A DNA stretch of 64,000 nucleotides from Kineosporia sp. NBRC 101731 (GTDB lineage: Bacteria > Actinomycetota > Actinomycetes > Actinomycetales > Kineosporiaceae). This document shows positions 12,186-31,695 of the stretch, piece by piece. The stretch is from contig NZ_BSTC01000004.1 in NCBI RefSeq assembly GCF_030269305.1, positions 375,963 through 439,962 on the forward strand, given 5' to 3'. The stretch's first letter is position 1; each line of letters starts with the position of its first letter. The position numbers were made by a program, and so were the translations under genes. The notes beneath the pieces were generated by a model. That model was not told where the DNA came from. It did no database searches and was given only the letters and a program-made list of their open reading frames with translations.

Positions 12186-13105
12186 GCCGTTCCTTTCCGA
12201 AGACGAGGGTCGATACCGCGCACCGCCAGGTCGAGGGCGATGTTGACCGCGGTGATCAGCACGGCGAAGACCACGATGCACGCCTGCACGACCGGGAAGT
12301 CCCGGCTGTTGACGCTGCGCACCAGCAGGTTGCCGATGCCTCCGAAGTTCATGATCGGCTCGAGCACCAGCAGGGCACTGAACAGGAACGAGAACTGGAT
12401 GCCCAGCCAGGCCAGGAGCGGTGGTACGGCGATCGGCAGGGCGTGACGGAACAACACGACCGCCGGCGACAGACCGAGTGAACGAGCGGTCAGCACGGGG
12501 CCCTGGGCCAGGGCGTCGAGCATCTGCCCCCGCACCAGCCGGGAGGTGGCCGAGACCGCCGAGACGGTCAGGACGGTCACCGGGATGGCCAGGGCCGCGT
12601 AACCGACGTTGCCGGTGGCGGGCAGCCAGCCCAGCTGGAGGGCGAACACCAGGATCAGGACGAAGGCGAGCAGGAAGTAGGGCACGCCATCGGTCAGGAA
12701 GGCCGCCCCCATCACCAGCCGGCCGCCGGGCCGGGTCGGGTGCAGCGCCGCGTACAGGCCGATCACCAGCGAGATCAGCGGCCCGATCACCAGGGCCGGG
12801 ACGATGATCCACAGGCTGGTCGCCAGACGGGACCACAGCAGCGAGTTCACGGGGGCGTCCATCGCGAACGACTGTCCGAAGTCGAAGGTGAAGGTGCTGA
12901 CCAGCGTGTGCACGTACTGAAGCCACAGGGGGTCGTCCAGGCCGAGCCGGGTGCGCGTGGCCTCCAGTACCTCGGGGCCGGCATCGGGCGGGGACAGCAG
13001 GGCGGCCGGGTCGCCCGAGAGCCGGGTGAGCACGAAAAGAACCGTGGACACCCCGAACACCACCAGCAGGAGGAGACCGAGGCGGCGGACGAGAAGGGCG
13101 ATCAC
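12182..13105 (-). CDS. ABC transporter permease, DppB/OppB type
   Basis: This 307-residue permease starts with MIALLVRRLGLLLLVVFGVSTV, the standard first span of DppB proteins, and contains the SGDPA segment, five further spans and the EAA loop (VLTARSLGLSPAVVLFRHALPIAVPPLL). It forms the transmembrane channel with the DppC homologue. Its ATG overlaps the stop of small protein 1 (ATGA at 13102-13105), an unusual arrangement because a non-transporter gene separates it from its ATPases. Confidence 0.92.
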   Translation of the reverse strand: MIALLVRRLGLLLLVVFGVSTVLFVLTRLSGDPAALLSPPDAGPEVLEATRTRLGLDDPLWLQYVHTLVSTFTFDFGQSFAMDAPVNSLLWSRLATSLWIIVPALVIGPLISLVIGLYAALHPTRPGGRLVMGAAFLTDGVPYFLLAFVLILVFALQLGWLPATGNVGYAALAIPVTVLTVSAVSATSRLVRGQMLDALAQGPVLTARSLGLSPAVVLFRHALPIAVPPLLAWLGIQFSFLFSALLVLEPIMNFGGIGNLLVRSVNSRDFPVVQACIVVFAVLITAVNIALDLAVRGIDPRLRKGTA

Positions 13106-13380
13106 GGCGTCCCCAGTTCCACGCGGCCGGCACCGGCATCCAGCAGACGCCGGACGAAGCCCGCCCGTTCCCGGTCCAGCAGCTCGGCCAGGGTGCTGCC
13201 GGGCTGATACCTGTCCAGGTCACCGGCGCTGAGGGTGCCGCGCTCGGCGAGAAGGGCCTCGAGCACGGCGAACCGGTCGCGCATCACCCAGACCTCGGAA
13301 GCTACCTCCAGCAGCATCCGCATCATCCCGTCCATGTCCTCAGGGGCCTTCAGATGGATCAGATGATTCAGGTCGCTCAT
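13102..13380 (-). CDS. Small helical protein 1 of the methyltransferase-partner family
   Basis: This 92-residue, mostly helical protein is not assigned to any family I can name. It is one of three paralogues in this window (also 18110-18409 and 31411-31695). All share the core W-[VI]-[ML]-[KR]-D-R-x2-VLE-x-[LV]-L (Trp31 here), a G-x4-G-x-[LIV]-D turn, then L-x3-ER-x3-[VI]-x-R. The start is ATG 13380, which overlaps the upstream ATPase stop; the longer frame upstream is shadow. It lies between the two ABC ATPase genes and the two permease genes, translationally coupled on both sides. Each paralogue accompanies one methyltransferase-fold gene, so a subunit or scaffold role is inferred, not shown. 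Confidence 0.75.
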   Translation of the reverse strand: MSDLNHLIHLKAPEDMDGMMRMLLEVASEVWVMRDRFAVLEALLAERGTLSAGDLDRYQPGSTLAELLDRERAGFVRRLLDAGAGRVELGTP

Positions 13381-14405
13381 CGGGCGGCCTCCAGCGCAAT
13401 CGGGGGTGGCGGGGCGATGACGGTCTCCAGCCCGCCCCGTAGTTCGAGATCGCCCGGGAAGTGACAGGCCACTTCGTGGCGTGAGGCACCGGGACCGGTC
13501 GATGCGGGCAGGAGGGTCAGCTCCGGCGCCGTCGTCGCGCAGAGCGGACGGGCCACCGGGCACCGCGGGTGGAAGGAACAGCCCGGCGGCGGGTTCAGCA
13601 GGGAGGGCGGATCCCCGCCCGCGGTGATCTGCTCACCGGCCGGGCGTCGCATGGAGCTGAGCACCACCGTGTAGGGGTGCTTGGGCCGGTCGAACACCTC
13701 GTCGGCGGGGCCGATCTCGACCACGCGCCCCAGGTACATGACCGCGATCCGGTGGCTGAGATGCGAAACCAGCGCCAGGTCGTGGCTGATGAACAGATAG
13801 GCCAGGCCGAGCTCACGCTGCAGGTCCTGGAACAGGTTCACGACCTGGGCCTGGACCGACACGTCCAGGGAGGCGGTCGGCTCGTCCGCGACCACCAGTC
13901 CGGGGTTGAGCATCAGCGCGCGGGCGACACCGACGCGCTGACGCTGACCGCCGGAGAGTTCCTGCGGGTAGCGCTCGGCGGTGGTGCGGTCCAGACCGAC
14001 CCGCTCGAGCATCTCGTAGGCCTGCTGACGCCGCTGCGCCCGGGAGCCCACCTTGTGCACGGCCAACGGCTCGATCAGCGCGTCCACCAGCTTGAGGAAG
14101 GGATTCAGCGAGGTCGAGGGATTCTGGAACACCATCGCCGCCCGTCGCCGGAGAGTGCGGCGAAGCTCGGAGGTCCCGGCGTGGGTGATGTCCTGTCCTT
14201 CGAAGAACAGTTGCCCACCGGTCGGTTCGCTCAGCCGCAGGGCTGCTCGTCCGAGGGTGGTCTTGCCGCTGCCGGACTCCCCGACCAGTCCCAGTGTCTG
14301 GCCGGCCTCGACGGTGATCGAGACACCGTTGACCGCGCGGACCTGGCGGCCACCCGCACCGGGGAAGAACTGCTGAAGATCCTGGGTCTGAAGGATGACG
14401 CTCAT
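13377..14405 (-). CDS. ABC transporter ATP-binding protein, DppF/OppF type
   Basis: This 342-residue ATPase drives the island importer. Walker A GESGSGKT, signature LSGGQRQR, Walker B LVVADEPT and the switch His (FISHDLALV) are all intact. The C-terminal oligopeptide-transporter extension has the PPPGCSFHPRCPVARPLC cysteine cluster characteristic of DppD/F proteins. ATG 14405 overlaps the stop of the preceding ATPase; the longer frame to 15179 runs through that gene and is rejected. Confidence 0.92.
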   Translation of the reverse strand: MSVILQTQDLQQFFPGAGGRQVRAVNGVSITVEAGQTLGLVGESGSGKTTLGRAALRLSEPTGGQLFFEGQDITHAGTSELRRTLRRRAAMVFQNPSTSLNPFLKLVDALIEPLAVHKVGSRAQRRQQAYEMLERVGLDRTTAERYPQELSGGQRQRVGVARALMLNPGLVVADEPTASLDVSVQAQVVNLFQDLQRELGLAYLFISHDLALVSHLSHRIAVMYLGRVVEIGPADEVFDRPKHPYTVVLSSMRRPAGEQITAGGDPPSLLNPPPGCSFHPRCPVARPLCATTAPELTLLPASTGPGASRHEVACHFPGDLELRGGLETVIAPPPPIALEAAR

Positions 14406-15427
14406 CGGTGCTCTCCCTTCATCTTCTGCTGCACCGGCAGGCAGGCCGAGCGGTGACCGGTGGCCACCAGCTCCAGCCCGGGCTGTGCGGTGGTGCAGTC
14501 GTCCCGGGCTGCCGGGCACCGGGGGGCGAAGGCACAGCCGGGTAGGTTCTCGTCGGAGCGCGGCGGACGCCCCTCGATGGGACGAAGACGCGACTCGTGC
14601 TGGTGGGCCGGAGCGGCCTGCAGCAGCGACCAGGTGTAGAGATGCTGAGGTGCCGACAGCACCTGCTGGGCGGGCCCGTCCTCGACGACCCGACCGGCAT
14701 ACATCACCACCAGGCGGTCGGCGATGCCGGAGATCACGTCCAGGTCGTGCGTGGCGATCAGGACCGTGATGCCCTCGCTGCGGTTCAGGTCCCGCAGCAG
14801 GTCGAGGATCTGGGCCTGGGTCGTGACGTCCAGGGCCGTGGTCGGCTCGTCGCACAACAGCACCGAGGGTCTGGCGACCAGCGCCATCGCGATCATCACC
14901 CGCTGGAGCTGGCCGCCCGAGATCTGGTGCGGATAGGCGTCCATCCGCGCTTCCGGGTCGGGAATTCCCACCCGGTGCAGGGTTTCCATGGCCAACGCGC
15001 GGGCCGTCACCTTGGGCAGTGAGGGGTCGGCGCTGCGGGCCGACTCGACCAGCTGCTGGCCGACCGAGCGCATCGGGTGCAGCGAGGACCACGGGTCCTG
15101 GAAGATCACCCGCGCGGTGCGGGCCCGGAACTGACGCAGCTGCCGGGAGGACAGAGCCCGCACGTCCTGCCCGTCGCACTCGATCGTCCCGGTCACCCCG
15201 GCCCCCCAGGGCAGCAGGCGCACCGCGGCGAGCATGGCGGTGGACTTACCCGATCCGGACTCCCCCGCCAGCGCGACGATCTGCCCGCGGGGAACCTCGA
15301 AACTCACCCCCCGCAGGATCTGCGCCCGCCCGGAACTGCCCGACAGTTCCACCCGCACGTCGTCCAGCCGCAGCGCCGGAGGTGGTGCGGTCTCAGTCGG
15401 CGGAGGGTTGACCTCGGTCGCCGTCAT
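14402..15427 (-). CDS. ABC transporter ATP-binding protein, DppD/OppD type
   Basis: This 341-residue first ATPase of the pair has Walker A AGESGSGKS, signature ISGGQLQR, Walker B VLLCDEPT and IATHDLDVI, then the C-terminal CAFAPRCPAARDDC cluster. The N-terminal ~20 residues are Pro/Thr-rich. The start ATG at 15427 overlaps the methyltransferase 1 stop (ATGA). With DppB, DppC, DppF and the lipoprotein it makes a complete importer, indicating that the pathway substrate is taken up from outside. Confidence 0.92.
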   Translation of the reverse strand: MTATEVNPPPTETAPPPALRLDDVRVELSGSSGRAQILRGVSFEVPRGQIVALAGESGSGKSTAMLAAVRLLPWGAGVTGTIECDGQDVRALSSRQLRQFRARTARVIFQDPWSSLHPMRSVGQQLVESARSADPSLPKVTARALAMETLHRVGIPDPEARMDAYPHQISGGQLQRVMIAMALVARPSVLLCDEPTTALDVTTQAQILDLLRDLNRSEGITVLIATHDLDVISGIADRLVVMYAGRVVEDGPAQQVLSAPQHLYTWSLLQAAPAHQHESRLRPIEGRPPRSDENLPGCAFAPRCPAARDDCTTAQPGLELVATGHRSACLPVQQKMKGEHR

Positions 15428-16494
15428 GAGTTCTCCCTCGATGGTTTCCGCGCGGTGAGCACCCAGGGGTACGCATTCGGCCCGAGGCCACGCTGCTGGA
15501 TCTCGATGAAACCGGCCTCGGCGGCGAGAGCGGCCAGATCGAGCGTGGCGGCGGTGCGCCACCACGGCTCATTGCCCTGCTCGGCGTCCCAGTCGTCGGC
15601 CCAGGCCTGCTGCGGCGTCCGCTGCGCGTACGGGGTGACGTCGGAGAAGTGCACGTCCCCACCGGGTTCCAGCAGGCGGAAGGCCTCCGCCAGGATCCGC
15701 CGGGTCACTGCCGGTGGCACCTCGTGCAGCAGGATGAACGAGGTGACCAGGTCGAAGCTCCCGGCCTCCAGCCCGGTGTCCTCCGCCGCGCCCCGCACCA
15801 TCCGCCAGGCGAACCCCCGTTCCTCGCCCCGCCGTAGCGCGTAGAGCAGCTCCGAGCGCGACAGGTCCACCCCGGTGATGCCGGCGCGGGGATAGGCCTC
15901 GGCCAGCTTCACCGTGTATTGCCCCGTGCCACAGCCCAGATCGACGATGTTGCGGTAACCGGCGCGGGGCGCGGCCTCGGCCACCTTCTGGCGCTGGTCG
16001 AAGATGCCGGCACCGTAGGCGGCGATCAGCATGTACCGGTAGACCAGCTCGTGGTGCACGAAACCCATCTGCTCGTGCCCGTCCCAGCCGCCGGTCGTGG
16101 TGTGGAAGTCGTAGGACCAGTAGGCCGGCGGCTTACGCCGTCCGAGCCGGTCCTCGAACCGGTCCAGGCCGATCGGCAGAGCCAGCGGCTCCAGTTGCGG
16201 CCGGCGCCGCTCGTAGGCGGCCACCGCCCGGGGTGTGGTCTGCTCGCGCGCCCACCGCAGCACCGCGCCGGTCAGCCGGAAGCCCGGGTCTTCCCGCAGC
16301 ACCGGATCGGTGCGCTCACGCAGCTTCTCGATGGTGGTGAAATCGCCCTCGAAGGCACCGGAGCGCTCCAGCTTCTCCAGTGCGGCCGTACGCAGCGGGG
16401 CCAGCCCGCCCCGCAGGCTGCGCAGGAAGCCGAGCTCGGCCCGGCCACGCTGGTCCAGGTCCACCCGGTCGAGGGTGGGCGCGCTGCCGGTCAC
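15424..16494 (-). CDS. Methyltransferase-fold protein 1 (island family)
   Basis: This 356-residue protein has a class I SAM-methyltransferase domain from about residue 180: motif I VDLGCGTGQY, ITGVDLSRSEL, FDLVTSFILLHEVP and LLEPGGD. The N-terminal ~125 residues are helical and unrecognised. Between the two lies a conserved run with YW, then His131, His140, His148 and Glu149 (H-x8-H-x7-H-E), invariant in the paralogues at 18436-19485 and 30338-31414. GTG 16494 is the start, overlapping the binding-protein stop. Substrate is unknown; membership of a catabolic operon makes simple O/N-methylation only one possibility. Confidence 0.82.
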   Translation of the reverse strand: MTGSAPTLDRVDLDQRGRAELGFLRSLRGGLAPLRTAALEKLERSGAFEGDFTTIEKLRERTDPVLREDPGFRLTGAVLRWAREQTTPRAVAAYERRRPQLEPLALPIGLDRFEDRLGRRKPPAYWSYDFHTTTGGWDGHEQMGFVHHELVYRYMLIAAYGAGIFDQRQKVAEAAPRAGYRNIVDLGCGTGQYTVKLAEAYPRAGITGVDLSRSELLYALRRGEERGFAWRMVRGAAEDTGLEAGSFDLVTSFILLHEVPPAVTRRILAEAFRLLEPGGDVHFSDVTPYAQRTPQQAWADDWDAEQGNEPWWRTAATLDLAALAAEAGFIEIQQRGLGPNAYPWVLTARKPSRENS

Positions 16495-18044
16495 GCCTTC
16501 TTCACCAGGCCCTCCAGCGGGATCACCAGACCCTGGTTGAAGTCGGTACCGGACACCTGAGTGGTGGCGGCACTGATCGAGGGGTTGGCGTAGCTCCACA
16601 GGATGTAGGCCTGGTCGTTGAGGTACTGGCTGGCCGCGGCGATCTTCTCCAGGCGGGCCGCGGGGTCGGTCTCGGCCCGGGTCGCGGCGAACAGCGTGTC
16701 CCACTTCGCGTCCTTGACCGCCGGCTTCTTACCGAACGACACCATGGAGAAGGCCCGGTCCACGTCGAACACGCCGGTGTAGGCGACACCGCGGTAGAAG
16801 ATGTCCGCGTCCGAGCCACCGGTGAACTGCTCGACCCACTCAGAGATCTCCAGTGCCTTGATGGTCGGCTTGAACCCGGCCGCGGTCAGCTGCTCGCCGA
16901 TGGCTTCCAGCAGCTGGCGGTACAGGGTCATCCCGGTGATGGTGATCTCGGCACCGGTCGCGCCGGCCTCGGCCAGCAGCGACTTGGCCTTCTCCAGGTC
17001 GTAGGCCGGCCGGGTGATGGAGTCGGTGTACCCGTTGACCTCCTTCAGCGGCAGCTGACCGTCCTCGATCTCGGCCAGACCGTGGGTCAGTCCCTCGACC
17101 AGGGCGGCGGCATCGATCGCGGCGATCGCGGCCTGGCGTACCTTGAGGTCCTTGAACGGGCCGCTCGTGGTCTTCAGCTGCAGCATGTTCTGCGTGCCGC
17201 CGAACTTCGCGCTCAGGGCCAGGTTCTTGTCACCGTCGAGCGTGGGGTACTGCGCCGTGGTCAGCTGATGGGCCACGTCGACCTCGCCGGACTGCAGGGC
17301 CAGCGCCAGCGCCGAGGCATCACTGAAGAACTTCAGGTCGACCGTGGCGGTGGCCGGTGCACCGTCCCAGAAGTCTTCGAAAGCAGTCAGTTTGGCGCCG
17401 GTGTCGGCCGAGTACGACTCCACCTTGAACGGTCCGGAACCGATCGGGTCCTGGGCGAATTTCGTCCCGCCGCCGGTCTTCTCCCAGTGCGCCTTCGGCA
17501 CGACGAACAGCGCCGACAGACGGCTCATCAGGAGCGGGTCCGGTCCGCTGGTCACCACCTCGACCGTCGAGTCGTCGAGCGCCTTGACCGAGGTGATGCT
17601 CATCAGGGTGATGGCATTGGCGTACTGCTCGGCCATCAGGGTGTCGAAGCTGAAGGCGACGTCCTGCGCGGTGACCGTCGTGCCGTCGTGGAACTTCACA
17701 TCCGGGCGCAGGGTGAAGGTCCAGGTGTTCTTGCCGCTCTCCTCCCAGGACTTCGCGATCCGGGGCTGGGGCTCGTCGTCGTCGGCGAAGACCCGCACCA
17801 GGGAGTCGTACACGTTGAACTGGAGGGTGGAGTACTGCTCGTCCAGCGGGTTCATCGACCCGGCGGTGGCGGCGGTGCCCACGGTGATCAGATCGACGGC
17901 GGTGCCGCCCTCGGCGGACGAACTGCTGCCGCCCGGACCGCCGCAAGCGGCCAGCGTGGCGAAACCGGCTGCAATGGCACCGAACTGGAGGATACCTCGA
18001 CGGGACATCTGAATCTGGGCAGGACGGAACGAATCGGGGGACAC
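16491..18044 (-). CDS. ABC transporter solute-binding lipoprotein (SBP_bac_5), Tat-type signal
   Basis: This 517-residue extracellular binding protein delivers the substrate to the DppBCDF-like importer. The leader has a twin-arginine core (MSRRGILQF, residues 13-21), a hydrophobic stretch and the lipobox LAAC with Cys34, so it is probably exported folded by Tat and lipidated. The mature part has family features such as NVYDSLVRV, WTFTLRPDVKFHDG and GSGPFKV. The GTG at 18044 is chosen because AGGAG lies 5 bases before it, whereas the internal ATG at 18008 has no ribosome-binding site. The family binds peptides, nickel complexes, sugars and other solutes, so the ligand is undetermined. Confidence 0.92.
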   Translation of the reverse strand: MSPDSFRPAQIQMSRRGILQFGAIAAGFATLAACGGPGGSSSSAEGGTAVDLITVGTAATAGSMNPLDEQYSTLQFNVYDSLVRVFADDDEPQPRIAKSWEESGKNTWTFTLRPDVKFHDGTTVTAQDVAFSFDTLMAEQYANAITLMSITSVKALDDSTVEVVTSGPDPLLMSRLSALFVVPKAHWEKTGGGTKFAQDPIGSGPFKVESYSADTGAKLTAFEDFWDGAPATATVDLKFFSDASALALALQSGEVDVAHQLTTAQYPTLDGDKNLALSAKFGGTQNMLQLKTTSGPFKDLKVRQAAIAAIDAAALVEGLTHGLAEIEDGQLPLKEVNGYTDSITRPAYDLEKAKSLLAEAGATGAEITITGMTLYRQLLEAIGEQLTAAGFKPTIKALEISEWVEQFTGGSDADIFYRGVAYTGVFDVDRAFSMVSFGKKPAVKDAKWDTLFAATRAETDPAARLEKIAAASQYLNDQAYILWSYANPSISAATTQVSGTDFNQGLVIPLEGLVKKA

Positions 18045-18109: not shown

Positions 18110-18409
18110 TCAGCGCTGAAGTGCGGCGGCGACCCGGTCGTCGGAGGGCAGCAGTGCCCCCATCACGCGGGCGACCAGAGCTTCGCGCTCACGTCGTAGG
18201 ACAGCGGCCAGCTCGGCGGCGGGCCGGACATCATCGATCTCGCCCTCCGCCAGGACGCCCTTGGTCGCGAGCAGGTTCTCCAGGACGAGGTTCCGGTCTT
18301 TCAGGATCCAGACCTCGGAGGTGAGTTCCAGGACCATCCGGGCCAGGTCGTCGATCCGGGCCTCACCGGTCAGATAGGTGGGACGGGAGGGGACTTCCGG
18401 GGCGGTCAT
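18110..18409 (-). CDS. Small helical protein 2 of the methyltransferase-partner family
   Basis: This 99-residue paralogue of the proteins at 13102-13380 and 31411-31695 carries SEVWILKDRNLVLENLL (Trp34), the G-x4-G-x-I-D turn and EREALVARVM. It follows methyltransferase 2 by 26 bases and has a GAGG ribosome-binding site six bases before its ATG. Predicted mainly alpha-helical, with no signal peptide or membrane span. No named family is recognised. The ALE-x-LL-x-x-KG-type helix faintly recalls the N-terminal helical part of nitrile hydratase beta subunits, but this is weak and should not be taken as homology. Confidence 0.77.
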   Translation of the reverse strand: MTAPEVPSRPTYLTGEARIDDLARMVLELTSEVWILKDRNLVLENLLATKGVLAEGEIDDVRPAAELAAVLRREREALVARVMGALLPSDDRVAAALQR

Positions 18410-18435: not shown

Positions 18436-19485
18436 TCAGGCCAGTGGTTTACGGGCGCGGGTGATCCACGGGTGAACTCCGTCGAGACCGTAGGACTCGA
18501 TCTGGGTGAAGCCCGCCGCACGCAGCATCGACACGGCGTCCATGGACATGGCCTCGCGGGCGAAGGGCTCGCCGCGGTTCTCGGTCTCCCAATCCAGGAC
18601 GACCGCACGGAACGCCGAATGCTGATCAGTGGGTGCGATCTCACCGATCAGGAGATCCCCTCCCGGCTCCAGCAGACGGAACGCCTCGGCGAAGATCTGC
18701 CGGCTGGCGGCCACCGGCACCTCGTGGATGAGTGTGTACATCGCCACCAGGTCGAAGGAACCGGCGGGCAGGCCGGTGTCCTCGGCCGGGGCCTGCACGA
18801 GCCGGGCCGGGACGCCCTGCTCGGTCAGGAAGGCGCGGCCGTGACGCAGCGCGCTGGCCGACAGCTCCACCGAGGTGATCTGCGCCTCGGGGTAGACCTG
18901 GTGCAGCCGGACGGTGAACCGGCCCGTGCTCGAACCCAGTTCGGCGATGTTCCGGTACGAGTCCCGGGAAGCTCCCCGGGCCGCCTTGGTCCGCTGGTCG
19001 TTCAGGTTCTGCCCGGTGCGCACGGCCCCCACCCCGCCCGGGGTCAGCACATAGGCGAAGACCAGTTCGTGGATGGCTGTGCCCATCAGATCGTGACCGT
19101 CCCAGCCACCCGGCGTGAGGTGGAACCCCTTCTCCCAGTAGGCCGGCGGCTCCAGATCGGGGTTCAGCTCCAGAACGACGGGCGAATCGGTGACCTCCAG
19201 CCACTTCTCCACCCGTGGCCGGATCTCCTCGACGGCCGGCAGGGCACGCACGTAGATCTCCTCCGCCACCCACCGGGTGACCAGCCGGTCCATCTGCCAG
19301 AGCGCGCTGTCGGCCAGAACGGACTCCACCGACTCCCGCCGGGAGTCCAGATCCGCCGGCGGCTCGGGAACCGCCTTCTCGTACACGGCGGCGGCCGCGG
19401 GCTGCAGGGTGCCACCGGCGTAGGCCTGGGCCGAACCCAGGAACTGAAGAGCAGCCCGCGAGCGCTGGCCAAGTGCGACGTCCAT
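18436..19485 (-). CDS. Methyltransferase-fold protein 2 (island family), altered motif I
   Basis: This 349-residue paralogue of the proteins at 15424-16494 and 30338-31414 has the N-terminal helical region, the H-x8-H-x7-H-E element (His122, His131, His139, Glu140), and a Rossmann domain with ITSVELSASAL, FDLVAMYTLIHEVP, LLEPGGDLLIGEI and a C-terminal HPWITRARKP. Motif I reads ELGSSTGRF: the second glycine of GxGxG is Ser186, which may weaken SAM binding. ATG 19485 with GAGAGG five bases upstream is preferred to the adjacent TTG at 19488. It is the first gene of the leftward island operon, just downstream of a promoter with two operator-like repeats. Confidence 0.83.
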   Translation of the reverse strand: MDVALGQRSRAALQFLGSAQAYAGGTLQPAAAAVYEKAVPEPPADLDSRRESVESVLADSALWQMDRLVTRWVAEEIYVRALPAVEEIRPRVEKWLEVTDSPVVLELNPDLEPPAYWEKGFHLTPGGWDGHDLMGTAIHELVFAYVLTPGGVGAVRTGQNLNDQRTKAARGASRDSYRNIAELGSSTGRFTVRLHQVYPEAQITSVELSASALRHGRAFLTEQGVPARLVQAPAEDTGLPAGSFDLVAMYTLIHEVPVAASRQIFAEAFRLLEPGGDLLIGEIAPTDQHSAFRAVVLDWETENRGEPFAREAMSMDAVSMLRAAGFTQIESYGLDGVHPWITRARKPLA

Positions 19486-19521: not shown

Positions 19522-19525
19522 CGCA

Positions 19526-19711: not shown

Positions 19712-20521
19712 CTATCGTGAGTACCGGCGCAGGCTCTCGGTGATCTCCTGGGCCGCCTCGACCATGCACCGGGTCACCTCGGCGCGACGATCGGGCGGAA
19801 GCCGGTGCACCGGCCCCGCGGTGCCGATGACCGCGGACACCGCGCCGGAGGGAGCGCGCACGACCGCCGCCGTGCCCCAGATGCCTTCGTCGATCTCCTC
19901 GCTGCTGACGGCGAACCCGTCCCTGGCCACCTTGGCCAGTTCCTCCTCGGTGATCTGGGCCGCCTGGGCCGGCGTGAGGGTCGGCTCGATCCGCGCGAGG
20001 TATCGCCGACGCTCGGGAGGCGGCATGTGGGACAGCAGCAATCGCGCCATCGACCCCAGGTGCAAGGCCATCGCCTCACCGCGCTGGAACTGCAGCCGCA
20101 CCGGGTGGCGCGATTCCACCCGGTCGACGCAGTATGCGTACTCCCCGCCGCGGCGGGCGATCAGGACGGTCTCGTCGATCTGGTCGCGGACCCTGAGCAT
20201 GATCGGCATGGCCACGTCGCGCAGGGCCGACGTGCCGGCGTCCAGCGCCCCCTGGAGCGAGGAGACCTTCTCGGTGACCTGGTACGAGCCCACCGGCCCG
20301 GCGGCGTCCAGCAGTCCCATCTCCCGTAGGACCCCCACGTAGCGATACGCCGTGGAGGCCGTCAGCCCGTGCTCGGCCGCCAGTTCGGGAACCGTCCAGA
20401 CCGGGCGCTCGGAATCGAACGACCAGAGCACCGCGACGAGCTTGCGCCCGCTCTCGATACCTCCGAGACGCCGGGGTGTCGCCTCGCCCACCGCCCCATT
20501 GACCACGCCACCGTCTACCAT
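19712..20521 (-). CDS. IclR-family transcriptional regulator of the island
   Basis: This ~270-residue protein has an N-terminal winged helix (LVAVLWSFDSERPVWTVPELAAEHGLTASTAYRYVGVLREMGLL) and the C-terminal IclR effector domain (LRVRDQIDETVLIARRGGEYAYC, LQFQRGEAMALHLGSMARLLLS, ISEEIDEGIWGTAA-like run). IclR proteins are dimers or tetramers that sense aromatic or organic-acid ligands. The ATG at 20521 or a GTG six bases upstream could start translation; neither has a clear ribosome-binding site, so translation may be nearly leaderless. It lies between the two divergent catabolic operons and its start overlaps a TTCCCA operator half, suggesting autoregulation. Confidence 0.9.
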   Translation of the reverse strand: MVDGGVVNGAVGEATPRRLGGIESGRKLVAVLWSFDSERPVWTVPELAAEHGLTASTAYRYVGVLREMGLLDAAGPVGSYQVTEKVSSLQGALDAGTSALRDVAMPIMLRVRDQIDETVLIARRGGEYAYCVDRVESRHPVRLQFQRGEAMALHLGSMARLLLSHMPPPERRRYLARIEPTLTPAQAAQITEEELAKVARDGFAVSSEEIDEGIWGTAAVVRAPSGAVSAVIGTAGPVHRLPPDRRAEVTRCMVEAAQEITESLRRYSR

Positions 20522-20559
20522 TCCCACATCATGGCATCAGCTTTCGCCAAGGATGCGAA
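20521..20559. promoter_or_regulatory. Putative IclR operators at the iclR start
   Basis: TTCCCACATCATGGCAT (20521-20537) has the left half of the island palindrome and a poor right half. Five bases on, TTCGC (20543-20547) and GCGAA (20555-20559) form a 17-base inverted repeat with the alternative arm seen in the other sites. Both cover the beginning of iclR, consistent with autoregulation. Confidence 0.45.
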
Positions 20560-20654: not shown

Positions 20655-20677
20655 CTTCGCATCTGGTGAGTGAGACA

Positions 20678-20694: not shown

Positions 20695-20717
20695 TTCATC
20701 TCTTGCGAGGTCTTCCC

Positions 20718-24571: not shown

Positions 24572-25311
24572 CCACCGTCACCTCACCGCGCGCCGTGCTG
24601 GGCGTCGTCCTCCCCTCGACCAACACCGTGGTCGAGGCCGAGTACAACGACATGCGCCCGCCCGGGGTCTCCTTCCACACCGGCCGGATCTACATCGCCG
24701 ACGAGAACCTCGGCTCCGACGGGAAGATGGAGTCCTTCCTCGAAGACCTGCGCACCCAGATCGGCACCGCCGTGCGCGATGTCGTCACCTGCAAGCCCGA
24801 CCGGATCGTGATGGGCATGTCCGCCGAGACGTTCTGGGGCGGCGCGCAGGGCGCGGCCCAGTTCGAGAGCTGGGTGGGCGAGCAGTCCGGGCTGCGCGTC
24901 TCCACCGGCGCCGCCGCGTGCAAGGCCGCCCTGGAGGCGTTCGGCGCCCGGCGCATCGGTGTGATCACTCCTTACCAGCCGGTGGGCGACGAGCAGGTGC
25001 GGGCCTTCTTCACCGAGATGGGCTTCGAGGTCGCGGCGGTCCGGGGTCTGGCCGTGGACAGCGCCACCGGAATCGCCGACGTCACCCCCGAGCAGATCCG
25101 CCAGGCGTTCCTGGCCGTCGACGGCCCGGACGTGGACGCGCTGGTCCAGGCCGGCACCAACCTCGCCGCCGTGGCCACCGCCGCCCAGCTCGAGGCCGAA
25201 CTCGGCAAGCCCGTGATCGCGATCAACGCGGCCACGGTCTGGCACGCCCTGCGCGCCGAGGGCATCACCGACCGGATGACCGGGTACGGCCGCCTGCTCG
25301 CCGAGCACTGA
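24568..25311 (+). CDS. Maleate isomerase / arylmalonate decarboxylase-like (Asp/Glu racemase superfamily)
   Basis: This 247-residue protein is related to maleate cis-trans isomerases and arylmalonate decarboxylases: VVLPSTNTVVEAEYNDM at the N-terminus, IGVITPYQPVGDEQV in the middle and QAGTNLAA near residue 195. In true maleate isomerases two cysteines act; here the equivalents appear to be Ser85 (MGMSAETFWGG) and Gly196 (QAGTNL), so ordinary isomerase chemistry is doubtful. It follows the fusion enzyme with an ATGA overlap and precedes amidohydrolases of the maleamate-amidase type, which would suit a C4-dicarboxylate end product. Confidence 0.83.
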   Translation: MTTVTSPRAVLGVVLPSTNTVVEAEYNDMRPPGVSFHTGRIYIADENLGSDGKMESFLEDLRTQIGTAVRDVVTCKPDRIVMGMSAETFWGGAQGAAQFESWVGEQSGLRVSTGAAACKAALEAFGARRIGVITPYQPVGDEQVRAFFTEMGFEVAAVRGLAVDSATGIADVTPEQIRQAFLAVDGPDVDALVQAGTNLAAVATAAQLEAELGKPVIAINAATVWHALRAEGITDRMTGYGRLLAEH

Positions 25312-25391: not shown

Positions 25392-25691
25392 GTGTTCGAG
25401 CACTTCGGCATGCTCCGGCTCAAGCCCGAGGCGACCACCGCCCAGCGCACCGCCATCGTGGACGGGCTGAATGCCCTCACCGACGTCGTCCCGGGCCTGC
25501 TGGAGGCCCACGCCGCCCAGGATGCCGGGCTGCGCGACGGCACCGCGGACATCATCTTCCGCATGGTCTTCGCCGACCGCGAGGCCTGGACGGCCTACGG
25601 CACGCACCCCGCCCACGTCGCGGTCATCCAGGACCGGATCGCCCCGGTCCTGGCCTCGAAACTGTTCGGCCAGGTCGAGAAGTCCGCCTGA
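25392..25691 (+). CDS. Dabb-type stress-responsive alpha/beta-barrel protein
   Basis: This 99-residue protein starts with GTG at 25392, preceded by AAGGCAGG. The sequence MFEHFGMLRLKPEA...LTDVVPGLLEAHAAQDAGL...DIIFRMVFADREAWTAYGTHPAHVAVIQDRIAPVL is the standard dimeric ferredoxin-like barrel of the Dabb family (PF07876), with the conserved TYGTHPAH-type run. Members are dimeric and include small cyclases and decarboxylases as well as proteins of unknown role. The stop is fused to the next start (TGATG). Confidence 0.85.
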   Translation: MFEHFGMLRLKPEATTAQRTAIVDGLNALTDVVPGLLEAHAAQDAGLRDGTADIIFRMVFADREAWTAYGTHPAHVAVIQDRIAPVLASKLFGQVEKSA

Positions 25692-26344
25692 TGCACGGGC
25701 TGCACCACCACCTGTCCGACGATTTCGCCGCGGCCGGCCTGGCCGGGCAGCTGACCCCCGGCCGGCGCGCGGCCTTCCTGCTGATCGACCCCGCCCGCGC
25801 CTACACCGACCCGGCCTCGCCGCTCTACGCCGGGGTCGAGGCCGCCGCCGAGGTCATGCGAACCCTGCTGGGTGCGGCCCGCCGGGCCGCGACACCCGTC
25901 GTCGTGACCCGCGTCCTTCATGAATTTCCCACCGACGGCGGCCTGTTCGCCCGCAAGGTGCCGGCCACGGGCCGCTGCTTCACCCCCGGCAATCCCTGGG
26001 CCGACTACATCGAGGGCCTCGAACCCGTCTCCGGCGAGTGCGTGGTGACCAAGCAGTACCCCAGTGCCTTCTTCGGCACCGCCCTGGCCGCCACCCTCAC
26101 GGCCACCGGTGTGGACACCCTGGTGATCGCCGGCCTCAGTACCAGCGGCTGCGTGCGCGCGAGCGCACTCGACGCCCTCCAGCACGGTTTCGCGCCCTTC
26201 GTCGTCGCCGATGCCGTCGGCGACCGCGACCACGACGTGCACACCTCGAACCTGCGGGACATCGACGCGAAGATCGGGCAGGTCATCGACGCCACCACCG
26301 CCCTGACGCTGATCGAATCCGCCGGCGCCACCACGGACATCTGA
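25691..26344 (+). CDS. Isochorismatase-family amidohydrolase A
   Basis: This 217-residue cysteine hydrolase has the complete catalytic triad: Asp33 (LLIDPARAY), Lys121 (VTKQYPSAFFGT) and Cys154 (LSTSGCVRAS). The TSGCVRA loop and the length resemble N-carbamoylsarcosine amidase and maleamate amidohydrolase (NicF), which release ammonia from half-amides. It is translationally coupled to the Dabb gene and followed 11 bases later by a second, divergent member of the same family, so the two probably act on successive or alternative amides. Confidence 0.9.
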   Translation: MHGLHHHLSDDFAAAGLAGQLTPGRRAAFLLIDPARAYTDPASPLYAGVEAAAEVMRTLLGAARRAATPVVVTRVLHEFPTDGGLFARKVPATGRCFTPGNPWADYIEGLEPVSGECVVTKQYPSAFFGTALAATLTATGVDTLVIAGLSTSGCVRASALDALQHGFAPFVVADAVGDRDHDVHTSNLRDIDAKIGQVIDATTALTLIESAGATTDI

Positions 26345-26355
26345 AAGAGGCCGCT

Positions 26356-27003
26356 ATGACCGACACCCCCGACTGGAACGCCGAAGTCGCCCGGATCCGC
26401 CAGTTGCGCCGCGACCGCACCAAGGTCGGGCCCGGGAGCCGCCCCGCCGTCGTCATCGTCGACTTCCAGAAGGCCTTCACCGAGCACGAGCACGTCGGCC
26501 CGTCCACGGCCGTGGCCCTGAAGCACTCCCAGACCCTGCTGGAGGCCGCCCGGGCGGCCGGCGTCCCGGTGATCTACCTGGTCATGATCCTCGACCGTCT
26601 CGACGACCGGATGCTGGCCCAGCGGGTGCGCTCCTCGCTCACCGAACGCTGCGAACGCGGCAACCCCTGGACCGAGATCTCCTCCGCGGTACCGGCTCAG
26701 CCGGGAGACCACATCGTGGAGAAGACCGTCGCCTCCGGCTTCTACAACACCCGCCTTCACGATCTCCTCCAGGACCTCGGTGTCGACGAGGTCGTGGTGA
26801 TCGGCACGTCCACCAGCGGCTGTGTGCGGGCCACGGTGACCGACGCCGCCTACCGCAACTACCGGATCAGCATCGTCGAGGAGTGCTGCGACGACTTCCG
26901 CACCCTCTCGGGCGAGGTGTCGCTGTGGGACATGCAGGACCGCTTCGGTGACGTCGTCTCCCTCGACTGGATGCTCGGGCGGTTCGGGGCGCCGACATCA
27001 TGA
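26356..27003 (+). CDS. Isochorismatase-family amidohydrolase B
   Basis: This 215-residue protein has triad Asp36 (VVIVDFQKAF), Lys123 (VEKTVASGFYNT) and Cys156 (TSTSGCVRAT). The ATG at 26356 has AAAGAGG five bases upstream. It differs substantially from copy A outside the motifs but shares the STSGCVRA loop, placing both in the N-carbamoylsarcosine/maleamate amidase branch. The stop overlaps the next start (ATGA at 27000-27003). Confidence 0.9.
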   Translation: MTDTPDWNAEVARIRQLRRDRTKVGPGSRPAVVIVDFQKAFTEHEHVGPSTAVALKHSQTLLEAARAAGVPVIYLVMILDRLDDRMLAQRVRSSLTERCERGNPWTEISSAVPAQPGDHIVEKTVASGFYNTRLHDLLQDLGVDEVVVIGTSTSGCVRATVTDAAYRNYRISIVEECCDDFRTLSGEVSLWDMQDRFGDVVSLDWMLGRFGAPTS

Positions 27004-27935
27004 CCGTTCTCAACAACCAGCGCCTGGTCTACCAGCCCTTGCCCCTGCGCCCGCGGGTCACCCTGCCCGGCGACGCGCGGGTGGCCGTCTGGCACGCCCC
27101 GAACGTCGAGCACTACGACTACGTACCGCCGGGCCAGGGATCGCCCCAGGGCCGGGTTCCCGCCCCCGACGTGCAGCACTACATGCACCGCGACGCCGGT
27201 AACCGCACGGCGTTCTGGCGTCTGCTGCGGGTGGTGGACGAGTTCGAGATCCCCTCCACGGTGAGCCTGAGCCTGTCCGTGCTCGAGGAGATCCCCGAGG
27301 TCCGCGATGCGATGAAGGAGCGCGGCTGGGAGGTGATGAGCCACGGAATCTCCAACCTGCGGCCGCTGTACGGCTACGAGGCGCAGGCCGAGCGTGAGTT
27401 CTACGCCCAGAACCAGGCCCTGGCGCTGCGCTACTGGGGCAAGGCGATCAAGGGCATGCTCGGGCCCAAGGTCTCGGGGACCGACAACACCTGTGACCTG
27501 ATGGCCGAGGCCGGCATGACCTACCACGCCGACTGGATCCACGACGAACAACCACGCCCTCTGAGGACGTCCACGGGCGCGCGTCTGGTGTCGGTCCCCT
27601 ACAGCTACATGCTTAACGACGTGCCGCTGCTGCACGCCAAGCACTACGACGGCGACTATTTCGTGGCCATGGTCAAGGCCCAGGTGACGCGGTTGCTGCG
27701 CGACGCCGACCGGGACGGTCAGGCGCGGGTCACCTGTGTGGCCACCCACCCGTTCGTGACCGGTCAGCCCTGGTTCACCCAGTACCTGCGGGAGATCTTC
27801 GGCTGGCTGCGCGAACAGGACGGTGTCTGGCTGAGCACGGCCGGCGAGATCACCGACCACTACCTCGAGCACCACTACGACGAGCAGCTGCGCTCCGCTC
27901 TCGCGAGCCAGGACCCGACGGCGGCGAGGGCATGA
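27000..27935 (+). CDS. Polysaccharide-deacetylase-fold amidohydrolase, PuuE/cyclic-imide-hydrolase-like (A)
   Basis: This 311-residue protein belongs to the NodB-fold group that includes PuuE allantoinase and bacterial cyclic-imide hydrolases rather than sugar deacetylases. Visible features are VAVWHAPNVEHYD, RDAGNRTAFWRLLRVVDEFEIPSTVSLS, the EVMSHGISN motif, SGTDNTCDLMAEAGMTYHADWIHDEQP and a late THPFVTGQPWF. The acid residues and histidines expected for the active site are largely present. In this cluster a ring-opening amide/imide hydrolysis is the most natural role. It is coupled to a second, degenerate copy downstream. Confidence 0.82.
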   Translation: MTVLNNQRLVYQPLPLRPRVTLPGDARVAVWHAPNVEHYDYVPPGQGSPQGRVPAPDVQHYMHRDAGNRTAFWRLLRVVDEFEIPSTVSLSLSVLEEIPEVRDAMKERGWEVMSHGISNLRPLYGYEAQAEREFYAQNQALALRYWGKAIKGMLGPKVSGTDNTCDLMAEAGMTYHADWIHDEQPRPLRTSTGARLVSVPYSYMLNDVPLLHAKHYDGDYFVAMVKAQVTRLLRDADRDGQARVTCVATHPFVTGQPWFTQYLREIFGWLREQDGVWLSTAGEITDHYLEHHYDEQLRSALASQDPTAARA

Positions 27936-28897
27936 ACAGCATCGGCACCGAAACGACGTTCGACGCCCCGATCATCGTCAACCCTGACGACGCAACCGTT
28001 TTCGCCCCGGATCTGGCGCGCACCTACGACCCCCACCGGGAACCCTGGACCCTTCCGGCCGGCAAGAAGCTGGTGGTGTCGCTGTTGCTGCACGCGCCGG
28101 CCTACCTGGACGACGTGCCGGCGGGCCTGCTCAAGCCGGCCGCGATGCAGGGCGGGGTCGGCCGGGAGACGTCCGAGCCGCGGCACGGGCAGGTGGCCAG
28201 GCTCTCACAATGGGACTTCGGCCTGACGGCCGGCATCTGGAGACTGCTCGACATCGCCCAAGCCGCCGGCGTTCCCACCGCAGTAGCACTGGACTCCCAG
28301 GGCGTGCGCACCATGCCCGGCCTGGCCGAGCTGGTCGCCCAGCAGGCCGACGAGATCGTGGTGCGCGGGCGGGCCGCCAACGTCATCCTCGGCACGGGCC
28401 CGGACGAGGAGGCCGAGCGGGCCTACATCGCCGAGGCCACCGCCGCCGTGCAGGACGCCACCGGACGCACCGCGACCGGCTGGTTCGGGCCCGAGCGCAG
28501 CCAGTCCGCCCGCACCACCCGGCTGTTGCGCGAGGCCGGGTACGGCTGGTTCGGCGAGTGGCCGGTCGACGAGCGCCCGGTCGAACTGACCGGTGCATCG
28601 GCCGGCCTGGTCGCCGTGCCGCATCCGCTGGAGACCGAGGACATGTTCAGCCTCTACACCCGCGGACTGCCGTTCGCCGCCTACGAGAGGCTTCTGGACG
28701 CCACGGTCGACACCCTGATCGAGGACGCCGCTGTCGTGGGTGGCCGGCACCTGGGGCTGAGCTGGTTCGGCTGGGTGCTGGGACAGGCCTGCTTCGCCGA
28801 CGTGGCCGAGAGCTTCCTGCACCGTCTGGCCGCCCGCCCCGAAGTACTCCTGGCCACCCCGGGAACCGTTGCCGATCGCGTCCGTTCGTGGACGTGA
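27932..28897 (+). CDS. PuuE-like polysaccharide-deacetylase-fold protein (B), active-site residues not conserved
   Basis: This 321-residue paralogue of the preceding protein shares the fold pattern (WDFGLTAGIWRLLDIAQAAGVPTAVAL, GWFGPERSQSARTTRLLREAGYGWFGEW, VPHPLETEDM). The SHG/HGxxN segment is replaced by V-R-G-R-A-A-N-V and the THPFVTGQP segment by SWFGWVLGQ, so the usual histidines are missing at both positions. It may be a non-catalytic partner of copy A or have a different mechanism. ATGA overlap with copy A and GTGA overlap with the MFS gene support equal expression with its neighbours. Confidence 0.78.
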   Translation: MNSIGTETTFDAPIIVNPDDATVFAPDLARTYDPHREPWTLPAGKKLVVSLLLHAPAYLDDVPAGLLKPAAMQGGVGRETSEPRHGQVARLSQWDFGLTAGIWRLLDIAQAAGVPTAVALDSQGVRTMPGLAELVAQQADEIVVRGRAANVILGTGPDEEAERAYIAEATAAVQDATGRTATGWFGPERSQSARTTRLLREAGYGWFGEWPVDERPVELTGASAGLVAVPHPLETEDMFSLYTRGLPFAAYERLLDATVDTLIEDAAVVGGRHLGLSWFGWVLGQACFADVAESFLHRLAARPEVLLATPGTVADRVRSWT

Positions 28898-30354
28898 CCC
28901 TCACCGGCGCACCCGCCCGAACCACCCTCCCGCGGGCCCTGGCCTGGGCCCTGGGCAGCGGCACGGTGCTGCAGGGCCTGAACTCCGCGGTGATCGCCGT
29001 GGCGCTGGTACCGATCGCCGACCACTACGGCACCTCCGCGGCGATCCCGTGGCTGATCAGCGGCCTGTACATCGCCTCGGCCGTCGGGTCGCCCACCGGC
29101 GGCCGGCTCGCCGACCTGTTCGGGGCCCGGCGGATCTACCTGGCCGGCCTGGTCCTGGTCGTTCTTGCCTCGGTGCTGGGGCCTTTCGCTCCCTCGGCGG
29201 GCTGGCTCGTGGCCGACCGGGTGCTGCTGGGGCTCGGGACCTCGGTGCAGTTCCCCGCCGCGATGGCGATCATCCGCCGGGAGGCGGACCGGCGCGCGGC
29301 CGAGGTCTCCGGGGCGATCGGCGTCGTGGCGCTGTGCGGGCAGAGCACGGCCGCCCTCGCACCGACGGTCGGCGGGCTGATCGTGGTGGTGTCCGGCTGG
29401 CCGGGTATCTTCTGGATCAACCTGCCCCTGGTGGCCAACTGCCTGTTCTGGGTGTGGCGTTGTGTTCCGGCCGACCCGCCCCGCGAGAAACGGGGCGCCC
29501 GGGCCGCCCTGCGGGTCATGGACGTGCCGGGTGCGCTGCTGTTCGTGGCCACGCTGTCACTGACCATGACGGTGCTCCTGTCGCTCGAGAACGGCACACA
29601 AGGGCGGGACCTCGCCCTGGGTGCGGCCGCCGGTCTGCTGGCCGCACTCCTGGTGCTACGGGAGCGACGGTGTGCCACGCCGTTCCTGGACCTGCGACTG
29701 CTGGCCGCCCACCCGGCGATCCTGATGACCTGCGTGCGGGGGACGGTCACGTTCGTGGCCTTCTACACGGTGTTCTACGGAATGCCGCAGTGGCTGGAGG
29801 TGGGCCGGGGCCTCGGCCCGGCCGCCGCCGGCCTGCTGATGCTTCCGGTCTTCGGGGTGGGTGTGGTGTCCACCCTGGTCGCCACCCGATGGGCGGCCCG
29901 GCTGGGACCGGGCCGGCTGCTGCTGGTGGGTAACGCGGCGTTCGTCGTCTCGGGCCTGGTCCTGGCGCTGACCGCCGGCGTGGAGAGCCCGCTCGCGCTC
30001 CTGGTTCTCGTCAATGTTCTCCTCGGCATCCCGACCGGGTTCAACAACCTGGGCAACCAGCTGACGCTGCACCACGCCAGCCCGGCCCGGGCCAGCGGCA
30101 GTGCCAGCGGCCTGTACCGCACGGCCCAGTACATCGGTGCGGCGATCTCCGCCGTGCTGCTGACCCACCTGGTCCCGACCGACCGCGCGGCGGGGGCCGC
30201 CGCCCTGGACACCGCCGTCCGCGACATCGGGCTCTGCCTGGTGATCATCGGTTTCCTGCTCCTGGCCACCGGACTCACCACACATCGACGACACCACCTA
30301 TCTGGACAGGCGTCCTCCATCGGAAGGAACACCAAGAATGGCAACAGGTCTTAA
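28894..30354 (+). CDS. MFS transporter, DHA2 (14-span) type
   Basis: This 486-residue integral membrane protein has a start at GTG 28894 overlapping the upstream stop. WLISGLYIASAVGSPTGGRLADLFGARRIYLAG holds the A-motif, and GQSTAALAPTVGGLI resembles motif C. About 12-14 hydrophobic spans are visible, consistent with DHA2 drug/proton antiporters. In this operon it may export a toxic intermediate or product or import a second substrate. Its end overlaps the methyltransferase 3 start by 17 bases. Confidence 0.88.
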   Translation: MTLTGAPARTTLPRALAWALGSGTVLQGLNSAVIAVALVPIADHYGTSAAIPWLISGLYIASAVGSPTGGRLADLFGARRIYLAGLVLVVLASVLGPFAPSAGWLVADRVLLGLGTSVQFPAAMAIIRREADRRAAEVSGAIGVVALCGQSTAALAPTVGGLIVVVSGWPGIFWINLPLVANCLFWVWRCVPADPPREKRGARAALRVMDVPGALLFVATLSLTMTVLLSLENGTQGRDLALGAAAGLLAALLVLRERRCATPFLDLRLLAAHPAILMTCVRGTVTFVAFYTVFYGMPQWLEVGRGLGPAAAGLLMLPVFGVGVVSTLVATRWAARLGPGRLLLVGNAAFVVSGLVLALTAGVESPLALLVLVNVLLGIPTGFNNLGNQLTLHHASPARASGSASGLYRTAQYIGAAISAVLLTHLVPTDRAAGAAALDTAVRDIGLCLVIIGFLLLATGLTTHRRHHLSGQASSIGRNTKNGNRS

Positions 30355-31414
30355 ACAACGCGGCCGGGCCGACTTCAACTTCCTGGCCGACCTGGCCCGC
30401 TGGAGCGGACTGGAACTGCAGGCAGCGGCGGAGAAGGATTTCGGTGACCTGTGCCCGGGCCAGTCCCTGCCGGGCGAGGTCCACGAGCAGATCCGGCACG
30501 CCACCCGGCTGCTGGAGGAAGGGTCCCGGGCCTACGGCTGGGACCGTTTCTACACCCGCCTCGTGGCCGAGCACCAGTTCGAAGCCGCCCGCTACGCATA
30601 CGAGGACGGCAAGGAAGCTGTCACCACCGAGTACGCCGACAACGCGCAGCAGGGCGGCACCATCATCGTGGACGCCTCGCTCCAGACCCCGGACTACTGG
30701 TCACAGACCGACTTCCACCTCGCGCCCGGCGGATGGGAGGGGCACGAGCGGATGGGTTTCATGATCCATGACTACGTCTACGACCTGATCTTCTCCACCG
30801 GCGGCATCGGAGCGGTCCGGCCGGACCAGAAGTTCACCGATGCCCGGGTCCAGACCGCGCAGGCCGGACTGCGCGATCACTACGACACGATTCTCGAGCT
30901 GGGCGTCGGCACCGGCCGGTACGCGGTCTCGCTGCAGACCGTCTACCCCGGGGCCCGGATCACCGGTGTCGATCTGGGCCGGACCGAACTGGAGCACGCC
31001 CAGCTGGTGGCGGCCCGCCACGGGTTCGCCTGGGACCTGCACCAGGCCGCTTGCGAACGGCTGCCTTTCGAGGACAACTCCTTCGACCTGGTCACTGCTT
31101 TCATCCTGCTGCACGAGGTCCCTCAGCCCTCGGCCCGGCAGATCCTGGCCGAGGCCTACCGGGTGTGCAAGCCCGGTGGGGAGGTCCTCATCGGTGACGT
31201 GGCCCCCTACAAGGATCAGGAGTCCTTGTTCCGTTGCGTGATCCTGGACTGGGAGACGGAGAACCGGGCCGAGCCGTTCTGGCGGGGGGCCCTGCTGGCC
31301 GATCGCCCGGGTCTGGTGCGCGCGGCCGGGTTCGCCGACGTCACCGAGTTCGGCGCTTCCTACCCCTGGATCACCCGCGGCATCAAGCCGGTTCTGGAAG
31401 GAGCCCCCGTATGA
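30338..31414 (+). CDS. Methyltransferase-fold protein 3 (island family)
   Basis: This 358-residue third paralogue (with 15424-16494 and 18436-19485) has a canonical motif I ILELGVGTGRY, ITGVDLGRTEL, FDLVTAFILLHEVP, CKPGGEVLIGDV, and the invariant His127, His136, His144, Asp145 element (H-x8-H-x7-H-D) ahead of it. The N-terminal ~115 residues are helical and unrecognised. ATG 30338 has GGAAGGA eight bases upstream. It is immediately followed by small protein 3 with a 4-base overlap, the tightest of the three pairs. Confidence 0.84.
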   Translation: MATGLKQRGRADFNFLADLARWSGLELQAAAEKDFGDLCPGQSLPGEVHEQIRHATRLLEEGSRAYGWDRFYTRLVAEHQFEAARYAYEDGKEAVTTEYADNAQQGGTIIVDASLQTPDYWSQTDFHLAPGGWEGHERMGFMIHDYVYDLIFSTGGIGAVRPDQKFTDARVQTAQAGLRDHYDTILELGVGTGRYAVSLQTVYPGARITGVDLGRTELEHAQLVAARHGFAWDLHQAACERLPFEDNSFDLVTAFILLHEVPQPSARQILAEAYRVCKPGGEVLIGDVAPYKDQESLFRCVILDWETENRAEPFWRGALLADRPGLVRAAGFADVTEFGASYPWITRGIKPVLEGAPV

Positions 31415-31695
31415 GCAGCCCGCACTACCCCACGACGAACGATCCGGCCCCCACGTACCTGGCCGGCACGAGCCCGGACGAGCTGGCGCGCATGGTGGTC
31501 GGCCTGACCGAGGAGCTCTGGATCCTTCGCGACCGGGTGATGGTGCTGGAGGAGGTACTTTCGCAGTCCGGGGCGATCAGCAGCGGCACGGTCGACGAGC
31601 ACACGCCCGGCGAGGAGCTGCACGGGCGGCTCGCACTGGAACGGCAGCGGCTGATCCGGCGGGTGCTGGGCGCCCCCCTGACCGTCGGCCCGTAG
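31411..31695 (+). CDS. Small helical protein 3 of the methyltransferase-partner family
   Basis: This 94-residue paralogue of 13102-13380 and 18110-18409 carries the core EELWILRDRVMVLEEVL (Trp37), G-x4-G-x-V-D and ERQRLIRRVLGA. The ATG overlaps the methyltransferase 3 stop and has GGAAGGAG seven bases upstream, so it is strongly translated. The Pro/Thr-rich first 18 residues, including Y-L-[AT]-G, also occur in copy 2 (TYLTG), giving those two a longer shared N-terminus than copy 1. Function unknown; complex formation with the coupled methyltransferase-fold protein is inferred. Confidence 0.78.
   Translation: MSSPHYPTTNDPAPTYLAGTSPDELARMVVGLTEELWILRDRVMVLEEVLSQSGAISSGTVDEHTPGEELHGRLALERQRLIRRVLGAPLTVGP

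Follow-up and report, generated by a model that had tools for sequence, protein, structure and literature searches.

What three copies of one gene pair are doing in a single gene island is the question raised by Kineosporia sp. NBRC 101731, where large proteins with a methyltransferase fold are accompanied by small helical proteins. The island lies in a stretch of 64,000 nt analysed here as the window (contig NZ_BSTC01000004.1, 375,963-439,962, forward strand), and the genome was searched in full (8.26 Mb, 88 contigs). A first-pass annotation of the window proposed that each pair forms a heteromeric enzyme. The six reading frames that it delimited are all open (Table 1); we call the large proteins MT1-3 (~355 residues each) and the small ones sm1-3 (~95 residues each). 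Taken as a whole, the data are best explained by the two proteins making up one heteromeric enzyme, a patchy and much duplicated catabolic unit, a reading that we hold with fair confidence.

The paralogy of both protein sets noted in the first-pass annotation is confirmed. Pairwise identity among MT1-3 is 40-43% (245-355 aligned residues; BLAST E 2e-54 to 5e-79) and among sm1-3 39-45% (66-91 residues; E 2e-11 to 2e-19), with E-values set to a database size of 1e7. All three small proteins carry the motif W-[VI]-[ML]-[KR]-D-R-x2-VLE, the G-x4-G-x-[LIV]-D turn and the L-x3-ER block described earlier. The methyltransferase fold of the large proteins is likewise borne out, Methyltransf_25 (Pfam) being matched in all of them with scores of 62-81 bits, well above the family's cut-off of 27. 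Their domain shows the features of class I S-adenosylmethionine (SAM) methyltransferases: a Rossmann-like fold, an acidic residue after strand 2, and motif I (E/D-x-G-x-G-x-G), which is intact in MT1 and MT3 and has one Gly changed to Ser in MT2. The N-terminal ~175 residues of MTs gave nothing above the Pfam cut-off (eight N-terminal pieces scanned), and no named family exceeded the curated cut-offs for the small proteins, for which 25 diverse members yielded best E-values of 0.0077 in Pfam and 0.027 in NCBIfam. In the alignment of 55 non-redundant MT rows, excluding rows with ≤220 aligned residues, P111, H120, G183, H249, E250 and R265 never vary, and 54 rows have E301. The window MTs retain all family-invariant residues, on which ground none of them looks dead.

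Gene order agrees with the earlier description: MT2 and sm2 (- strand) are adjacent, as are MT3 and sm3 (+ strand), and two overlapping ATP-binding cassette (ABC) ATPase genes separate MT1 from sm1. Pairing was followed in a set of 28 loci, two further loci and four plasmid loci, comprising 55 MT rows, five of which were set aside as fragments or methyltransferase cores alone; one gene was counted twice. A small gene is located on the same strand within 2.2 kb of 48 of the 50 MTs, and the other two are truncated where the locus or contig stops. When 28 genomes or records were searched whole, 118 of 135 small genes had a same-strand MT within 3.5 kb (96 of these at no more than 600 bases), while random placement predicts 2.6. 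Some apparently lone small genes (in loci L102, L105 and L094) have an MT in the same cluster, farther away or on the opposite strand.

Co-occurrence was also assessed per genome, scoring the best candidates in each at E ≤ 1e-5 for the small protein and E ≤ 1e-40 for the MT. Among 240 alphaproteobacterial genomes (the class of G408, a Sphingomonadales metagenome-assembled genome, MAG), the small protein was found in 15 and the MT in 16; all 15 are shared, and the match in the sixteenth MT genome lacks the N-terminal region. Among 296 genomes of the window's phylum both proteins occur in the same three, and at E ≤ 0.01 six more genomes have weak small-like matches (E 3.6e-5 to 0.0095) and no MT. 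Fisher tests give 6e-23 and 2e-7, respectively, both overstated because the genomes are related and the sample centres are known holders. Wide occurrence of the small protein without the large one had been named beforehand as the finding that should overturn the two-component idea; per genome this is not the case at E ≤ 1e-5. Regions around small genes (18 alphaproteobacterial, two from the window's phylum) contain an MT with its N-terminal region in 18 of 20 instances. In 19 control regions, taken from seven of the 16 genomes, there was no small gene, and two had an MT-like match. Furthermore, distances in MT and small-protein trees are correlated across 50 pairs (r 0.87; maximum of 2000 permutations 0.29), and also across the 19 non-island pairs (r 0.85; permutation maximum 0.41).

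The complex prediction suggested in the first-pass annotation was performed on single chains. In Nocardiopsis alkaliphila, MT2 and sm2 orthologues are in frame, with one TGA and 18 codons between them. The read-through chain, folded by AlphaFold2 with 76 aligned rows drawn from the window and the fetched loci, reached a mean predicted local confidence (pLDDT) of 92.4 and a predicted template modelling score (pTM) of 0.91. Its small part consists of a 34-residue helix followed by shorter helices, with core pLDDT of 93-98. A floating 93-residue tail would give a pTM of ~0.75 (our own estimate, with no control fold), so that docking of the two orthologues in one chain is predicted with confidence.

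Several results weigh against a heteromeric enzyme, or narrow it. The second chain, from a Nevskiaceae (gammaproteobacterial) MAG, was folded from a shallow alignment of 44 divergent rows and attained pLDDT 79.9 and pTM 0.74, values that speak neither for docking nor against it. In the 28 genomes or records, a small gene lies within 3.5 kb of 114 of the 150 MT matches listed; the remaining 36 lack one at this range, a few of them being at contig ends; conversely, 17 of the 135 small genes have no same-strand MT within this distance. In the alphaproteobacterial sample, 25 of 43 small genes are paired among the MT matches listed. With three genomes left out in which the MT counts are lower bounds, the paired fraction is 17 of 22 for small genes (12 genomes) and 17 of 32 for MTs (13 genomes). 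A natural MT-small fusion is absent among the fetched open frames. Finally, swapping sm1 and sm2 within 14 genomes leaves r unchanged (0.911 vs 0.909); the trees therefore do not match individual small proteins to MTs, and sm1 is linked to MT1 by synteny alone. Shared descent explains part of the tree correlation.

The MT and the small protein thus travel together per genome, and not always within one operon. Because gene-level pairing is incomplete, several MTs may share a single small protein, or a number of MTs may act alone; these counts speak against strict one-to-one pairing. The original proposal is partly supported. The heteromeric enzyme itself is well supported by genome co-occurrence together with one confident docking out of two folds, and it may be, as first supposed, that the pairs act on related substrates or in successive steps and that activity requires the small partner.

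The three copies mark a local extreme within a larger family and do not define it. An MT3 query against the whole Kineosporia genome gave 10 matching places, of which the window's three MTs alone match beyond the methyltransferase core; a second whole-genome search for MTs again returned three, and the small genes likewise numbered three (133 of 134 candidates scored). Kineosporia babensis, whose MTs are 82-91% identical, is the nearest relative found. As small genes occur in two of six Kineosporia genomes searched, including the one studied, the island is patchy. Counting copies at E ≤ 0.001, exactly two small genes are present in 12 of 16 actinobacterial genomes (range over all 16, 1-4), and a third pair, seen in the window, K. 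babensis and Rhodococcus sp. IEGM 1379, is atypical. Higher numbers were detected in the uncultured alphaproteobacterium AG-426-B21 (12 in 1.4 Mb), in four MAGs of 2.3-2.8 Mb (12-16; two Gammaproteobacteria, one Nevskiaceae and one classified only as a proteobacterium), and in three sphingomonad or alphaproteobacterial MAGs (5-9). With representatives in actinobacteria, alphaproteobacteria and gammaproteobacteria, this two-gene enzyme family spans at least two phyla and is broader than the first-pass annotation saw.

Some particular arrangements were recorded during the survey. Plasmid AP027332.1 of Sphingobium sp. TomTYG65 bears an MT-small pair, which is not mentioned in the available passages of PMC10653915 (12 of the 38 places found). 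In Nocardiopsis sp. ATB16-24 (L108, 1222-15854), a second, distinct cluster on the same contig has two further MT-small pairs; with them are an ABC importer of the oligopeptide type, a flavin adenine dinucleotide (FAD) monooxygenase and a protein that weakly matches the maleate-isomerase-like one. The uncultured alphaproteobacterium G407 has tandem MTs with no small gene in the fetched stretch (L092, 4797-7200; L093, 3609-6035), and L096 (2390-2692) holds a well conserved lone small gene near cobalamin-dependent methionine synthase-like genes, named by eye.

Table 1. Genes of the Kineosporia sp. NBRC 101731 island, numbered from the first base of the window
Feature	Position	Strand	Basis or remark
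MT1, class I SAM-methyltransferase-fold protein with N-terminal helical region	15424..16494	-	Pfam, motifs; orthologues in actinobacterial island loci
sm1, small helical protein, MT1-class partner by synteny, behind two ABC ATPase genes	13102..13380	-	
MT2, MT1 paralogue; motif I is ELGSSTG	18436..19485	-	
sm2, small protein directly downstream of MT2	18110..18409	-	Nocardiopsis orthologue pair folded
MT3, paralogue of MT1 and MT2	30338..31414	+	
sm3, small protein; its start and the MT3 stop share 4 bases	31411..31695	+	
Solute-binding protein, oligopeptide/nickel-type ABC importer	16491..18044	-	Subfamily matches, all below curated cut-offs
ABC ATPase (DppD-like), between MT1 and sm1	14402..15430	-	Named by eye; place conserved in island loci
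ABC ATPase (DppF-like), between MT1 and sm1	13377..14402	-	Named by eye; place conserved in island loci
ABC permease (DppB-like)	12182..13105	-	Named by eye; place conserved in island loci
IclR-like regulator	19712..20527	-	Named by eye; homologues in island loci
Twin carbon-nitrogen hydrolase (nitrilase fold)	20670..22445	+	
FAD monooxygenase fused to PEP-mutase/isocitrate-lyase-type lyase	22442..24571	+	
Maleate isomerase / arylmalonate decarboxylase-like protein	24568..25311	+	
Isochorismatase-family amidohydrolase 1	25691..26344	+	
Isochorismatase-family amidohydrolase 2	26356..27003	+	
PuuE-like (polysaccharide-deacetylase fold) hydrolase 1	27000..27935	+	
PuuE-like hydrolase 2	27932..28897	+	Without Pfam match

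Within the fetched flanks, the actinobacterial island comprises MT2-sm2, the solute-binding protein, MT1, two ABC ATPases, sm1 and two permeases. It also includes the IclR-like regulator, as annotated before, the twin nitrilase-fold protein, the FAD monooxygenase, the phosphoenolpyruvate (PEP)-mutase-type lyase, the maleate-isomerase-like protein and the isochorismatase-family amidase. The monooxygenase-lyase fusion is also found in K. babensis, Arthrobacter citreus and Rhodococcus sp. CH91, whereas the loci of Nocardiopsis, Thermomonospora, Actinocorallia and Actinomadura have the two parts separate; the locus end cuts them off in Rhodococcus IEGM 1379 and Nocardioides. Among the enzymes compared, nearest solved relatives are 2,3-dimethylmalate lyase 3fa3 for the lyase, maleate isomerase 2xed for the maleate-isomerase-like protein, N-carbamoylsarcosine amidohydrolase for the amidase, and PuuE-like proteins for PuuE-like hydrolase 1. 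Judged from these relatives, the substrate of the island is probably a nitrogen-containing ring compound. MT pairs elsewhere are in apparent degradative clusters too (gene names by eye). Any companion enzyme of the island type was detected in six of 20 small-gene regions and in three of 19 controls; the island's particular companions are not general to MT pairs.

Three observations concern the neighbouring genes. The catalytic cysteine of the twin nitrilase-fold protein is, by eye, present in copy 1 and absent from copy 2. Beside the island, window positions 5789-10542 hold molybdenum hydroxylase genes and an XdhC-type maturation protein; such hydroxylase genes adjoin the island in K. babensis too, but the flanks fetched for the remaining island loci showed none. 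A FAD-linked oxidase of the vanillyl-alcohol-oxidase/GlcD type (by eye, no control count) lies near a pair in L118, L119, L120, L125, L102 and L105.

With regard to the reaction, an alternative that is compatible with two subunits would make the MTs non-methylating enzymes, in which SAM or S-adenosylhomocysteine and a possible metal site (the invariant H and H-E...E) serve decarboxylation, hydroxylation or C-C chemistry. The degradative gene setting is in line with this, and the fold matches include, by title, TamK (10-decarboxylase) and SpnF ([4+2]-cyclase). The invariant H and E are 52, 52 and 53 residues apart in MT1, MT2 and MT3 (H254 and E306 in MT2), and the available passages of PMC10502145 give H244 and H296, 52 residues apart, as the zinc ligands of SgvM. 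This equal or nearly equal spacing is a lead taken from sequence and not from structural superposition. The SAM motifs kept in MT1-3 count against the alternative, which we regard as rather doubtful.

It is also conceivable that MTs are conventional homodimeric small-molecule O-, N- or C-methyltransferases, the small protein being a co-regulated factor (a chaperone or pathway regulator) and not a subunit. Foldseek and VIA-align do put the MT in class I, where its methyltransferase domain is an ordinary member; VIA-align matches hardly cover the helical N-terminal part or the small protein and do not bear on the fold of either. In addition, about a quarter of the listed MTs have no small gene nearby, and the first 20 Foldseek rows include the two-domain enzymes DsyB, Rv2258c, SgvM and SibL, of which SgvM is a homodimer according to the available passages of PMC10502145. 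However, these four superpose poorly over the full chain (TM-score by query length <0.4, root-mean-square deviation 12-16 Å), and the confident docking predicted for the N. alkaliphila chain (L016) and near-perfect genome-level co-occurrence make this explanation unlikely.

The weakest alternative is breakdown of tetrapyrrole- or maleimide-type rings, with PuuE-like imide hydrolases, maleamate-type amidases, and maleate-isomerase-like and dimethylmalate-lyase-like enzymes forming an alkylmaleimide route downstream of the MT pairs: it is suggested by 3fa3, 2xed and the PuuE-like relatives and by homologues of some of the enzymes that neighbour MT pairs on two Novosphingobium plasmids and in an uncultured alphaproteobacterium, a Nevskiaceae MAG and a sphingomonad MAG, but these loci were hand-picked, the closest relative of the amidase points elsewhere, companion enzymes are hardly more frequent than in controls and a tetrapyrrole-specific enzyme was not noticed, so that we find it quite improbable here and reject it as a general setting of the pairs.

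We return to the heteromeric enzyme. Its large subunit would combine the SAM-binding methyltransferase domain with a helical N-terminal domain, on which the small protein, built of one long helix and shorter ones, would dock; the small protein may take the place of the dimer partner's helices in O-methyltransferase-like enzymes. In the island, two to three such pairs would work beside a flavin monooxygenase, enzymes cleaving amide and carbon-carbon bonds, and an ABC importer of the oligopeptide type. Docking is predicted, and we infer SAM-dependent chemistry, the role of the small protein and the class of substrate.

Comparison with known systems places the pair close to, and apart from, several of them. 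It shares the SAM-binding domain, its motifs and fold, and a helical N-terminal domain with two-domain class I enzymes (SgvM, DsyB, Rv2258c), and its H...E spacing recalls that of the zinc histidines of SgvM. Unlike them, the MTs have a separate small protein, a catabolic setting and an N-terminal region without a Pfam match above cut-off, and H-E...E in place of the two zinc histidines. Trm112 is similarly a small protein coupled with class I methyltransferases, and has zinc-binding cysteines; its complex (entry 6f5z) is one of the fold matches of the MT. In contrast, the MTs mostly have dedicated small-protein copies beside them, in a catabolic setting, and sm1-3 contain no cysteine and therefore no Trm112-type zinc site. 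Small helical subunits also occur in catabolic enzymes such as nitrile hydratase and those of the AtzG/GatC type. These resemble sm1-3 as short helical partners in catabolic operons and differ in that the enzyme partner has another fold and there is no significant sequence relation. A nitrile-hydratase-like small subunit was considered and rejected, as the likeness to a nitrile hydratase alpha helix was local and weak (E 1.1), single stretches being far weaker.

The available passages of literature on catabolic methyltransferases with a small partner, or on such gene clusters, do not describe the MT-small pair. To us it represents a heteromeric variant, so far undescribed, of the SAM-methyltransferase superfamily in catabolic gene clusters, and we infer its reaction; the novelty lies in the pairing and the small protein, while the superfamily of the large subunit is already known. 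A bolder form is tentative at best: an undescribed two-component class of catabolic enzymes with a SAM-methyltransferase fold, in which a dedicated small helical subunit would complete the active site, the invariant H and H-E...E would bind a metal, and the step would go beyond simple methylation; certain proteobacteria with small genomes would have expanded it to about a dozen paralogous units or more.

Routine use of methyl transfer in degradation would be unusual in itself. Furthermore, the small protein and the N-terminal region of MTs are outside Pfam, yet the pair extends across actinobacteria, alphaproteobacteria and gammaproteobacteria and reaches 12-16 small genes per assembly in five assemblies of 1.4-2.8 Mb. 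In one record, the database labels of a pair are "class I SAM-dependent methyltransferase" and "hypothetical protein". Should the pair prove to be degradative, such generic labels conceal an entire class of catabolic steps.

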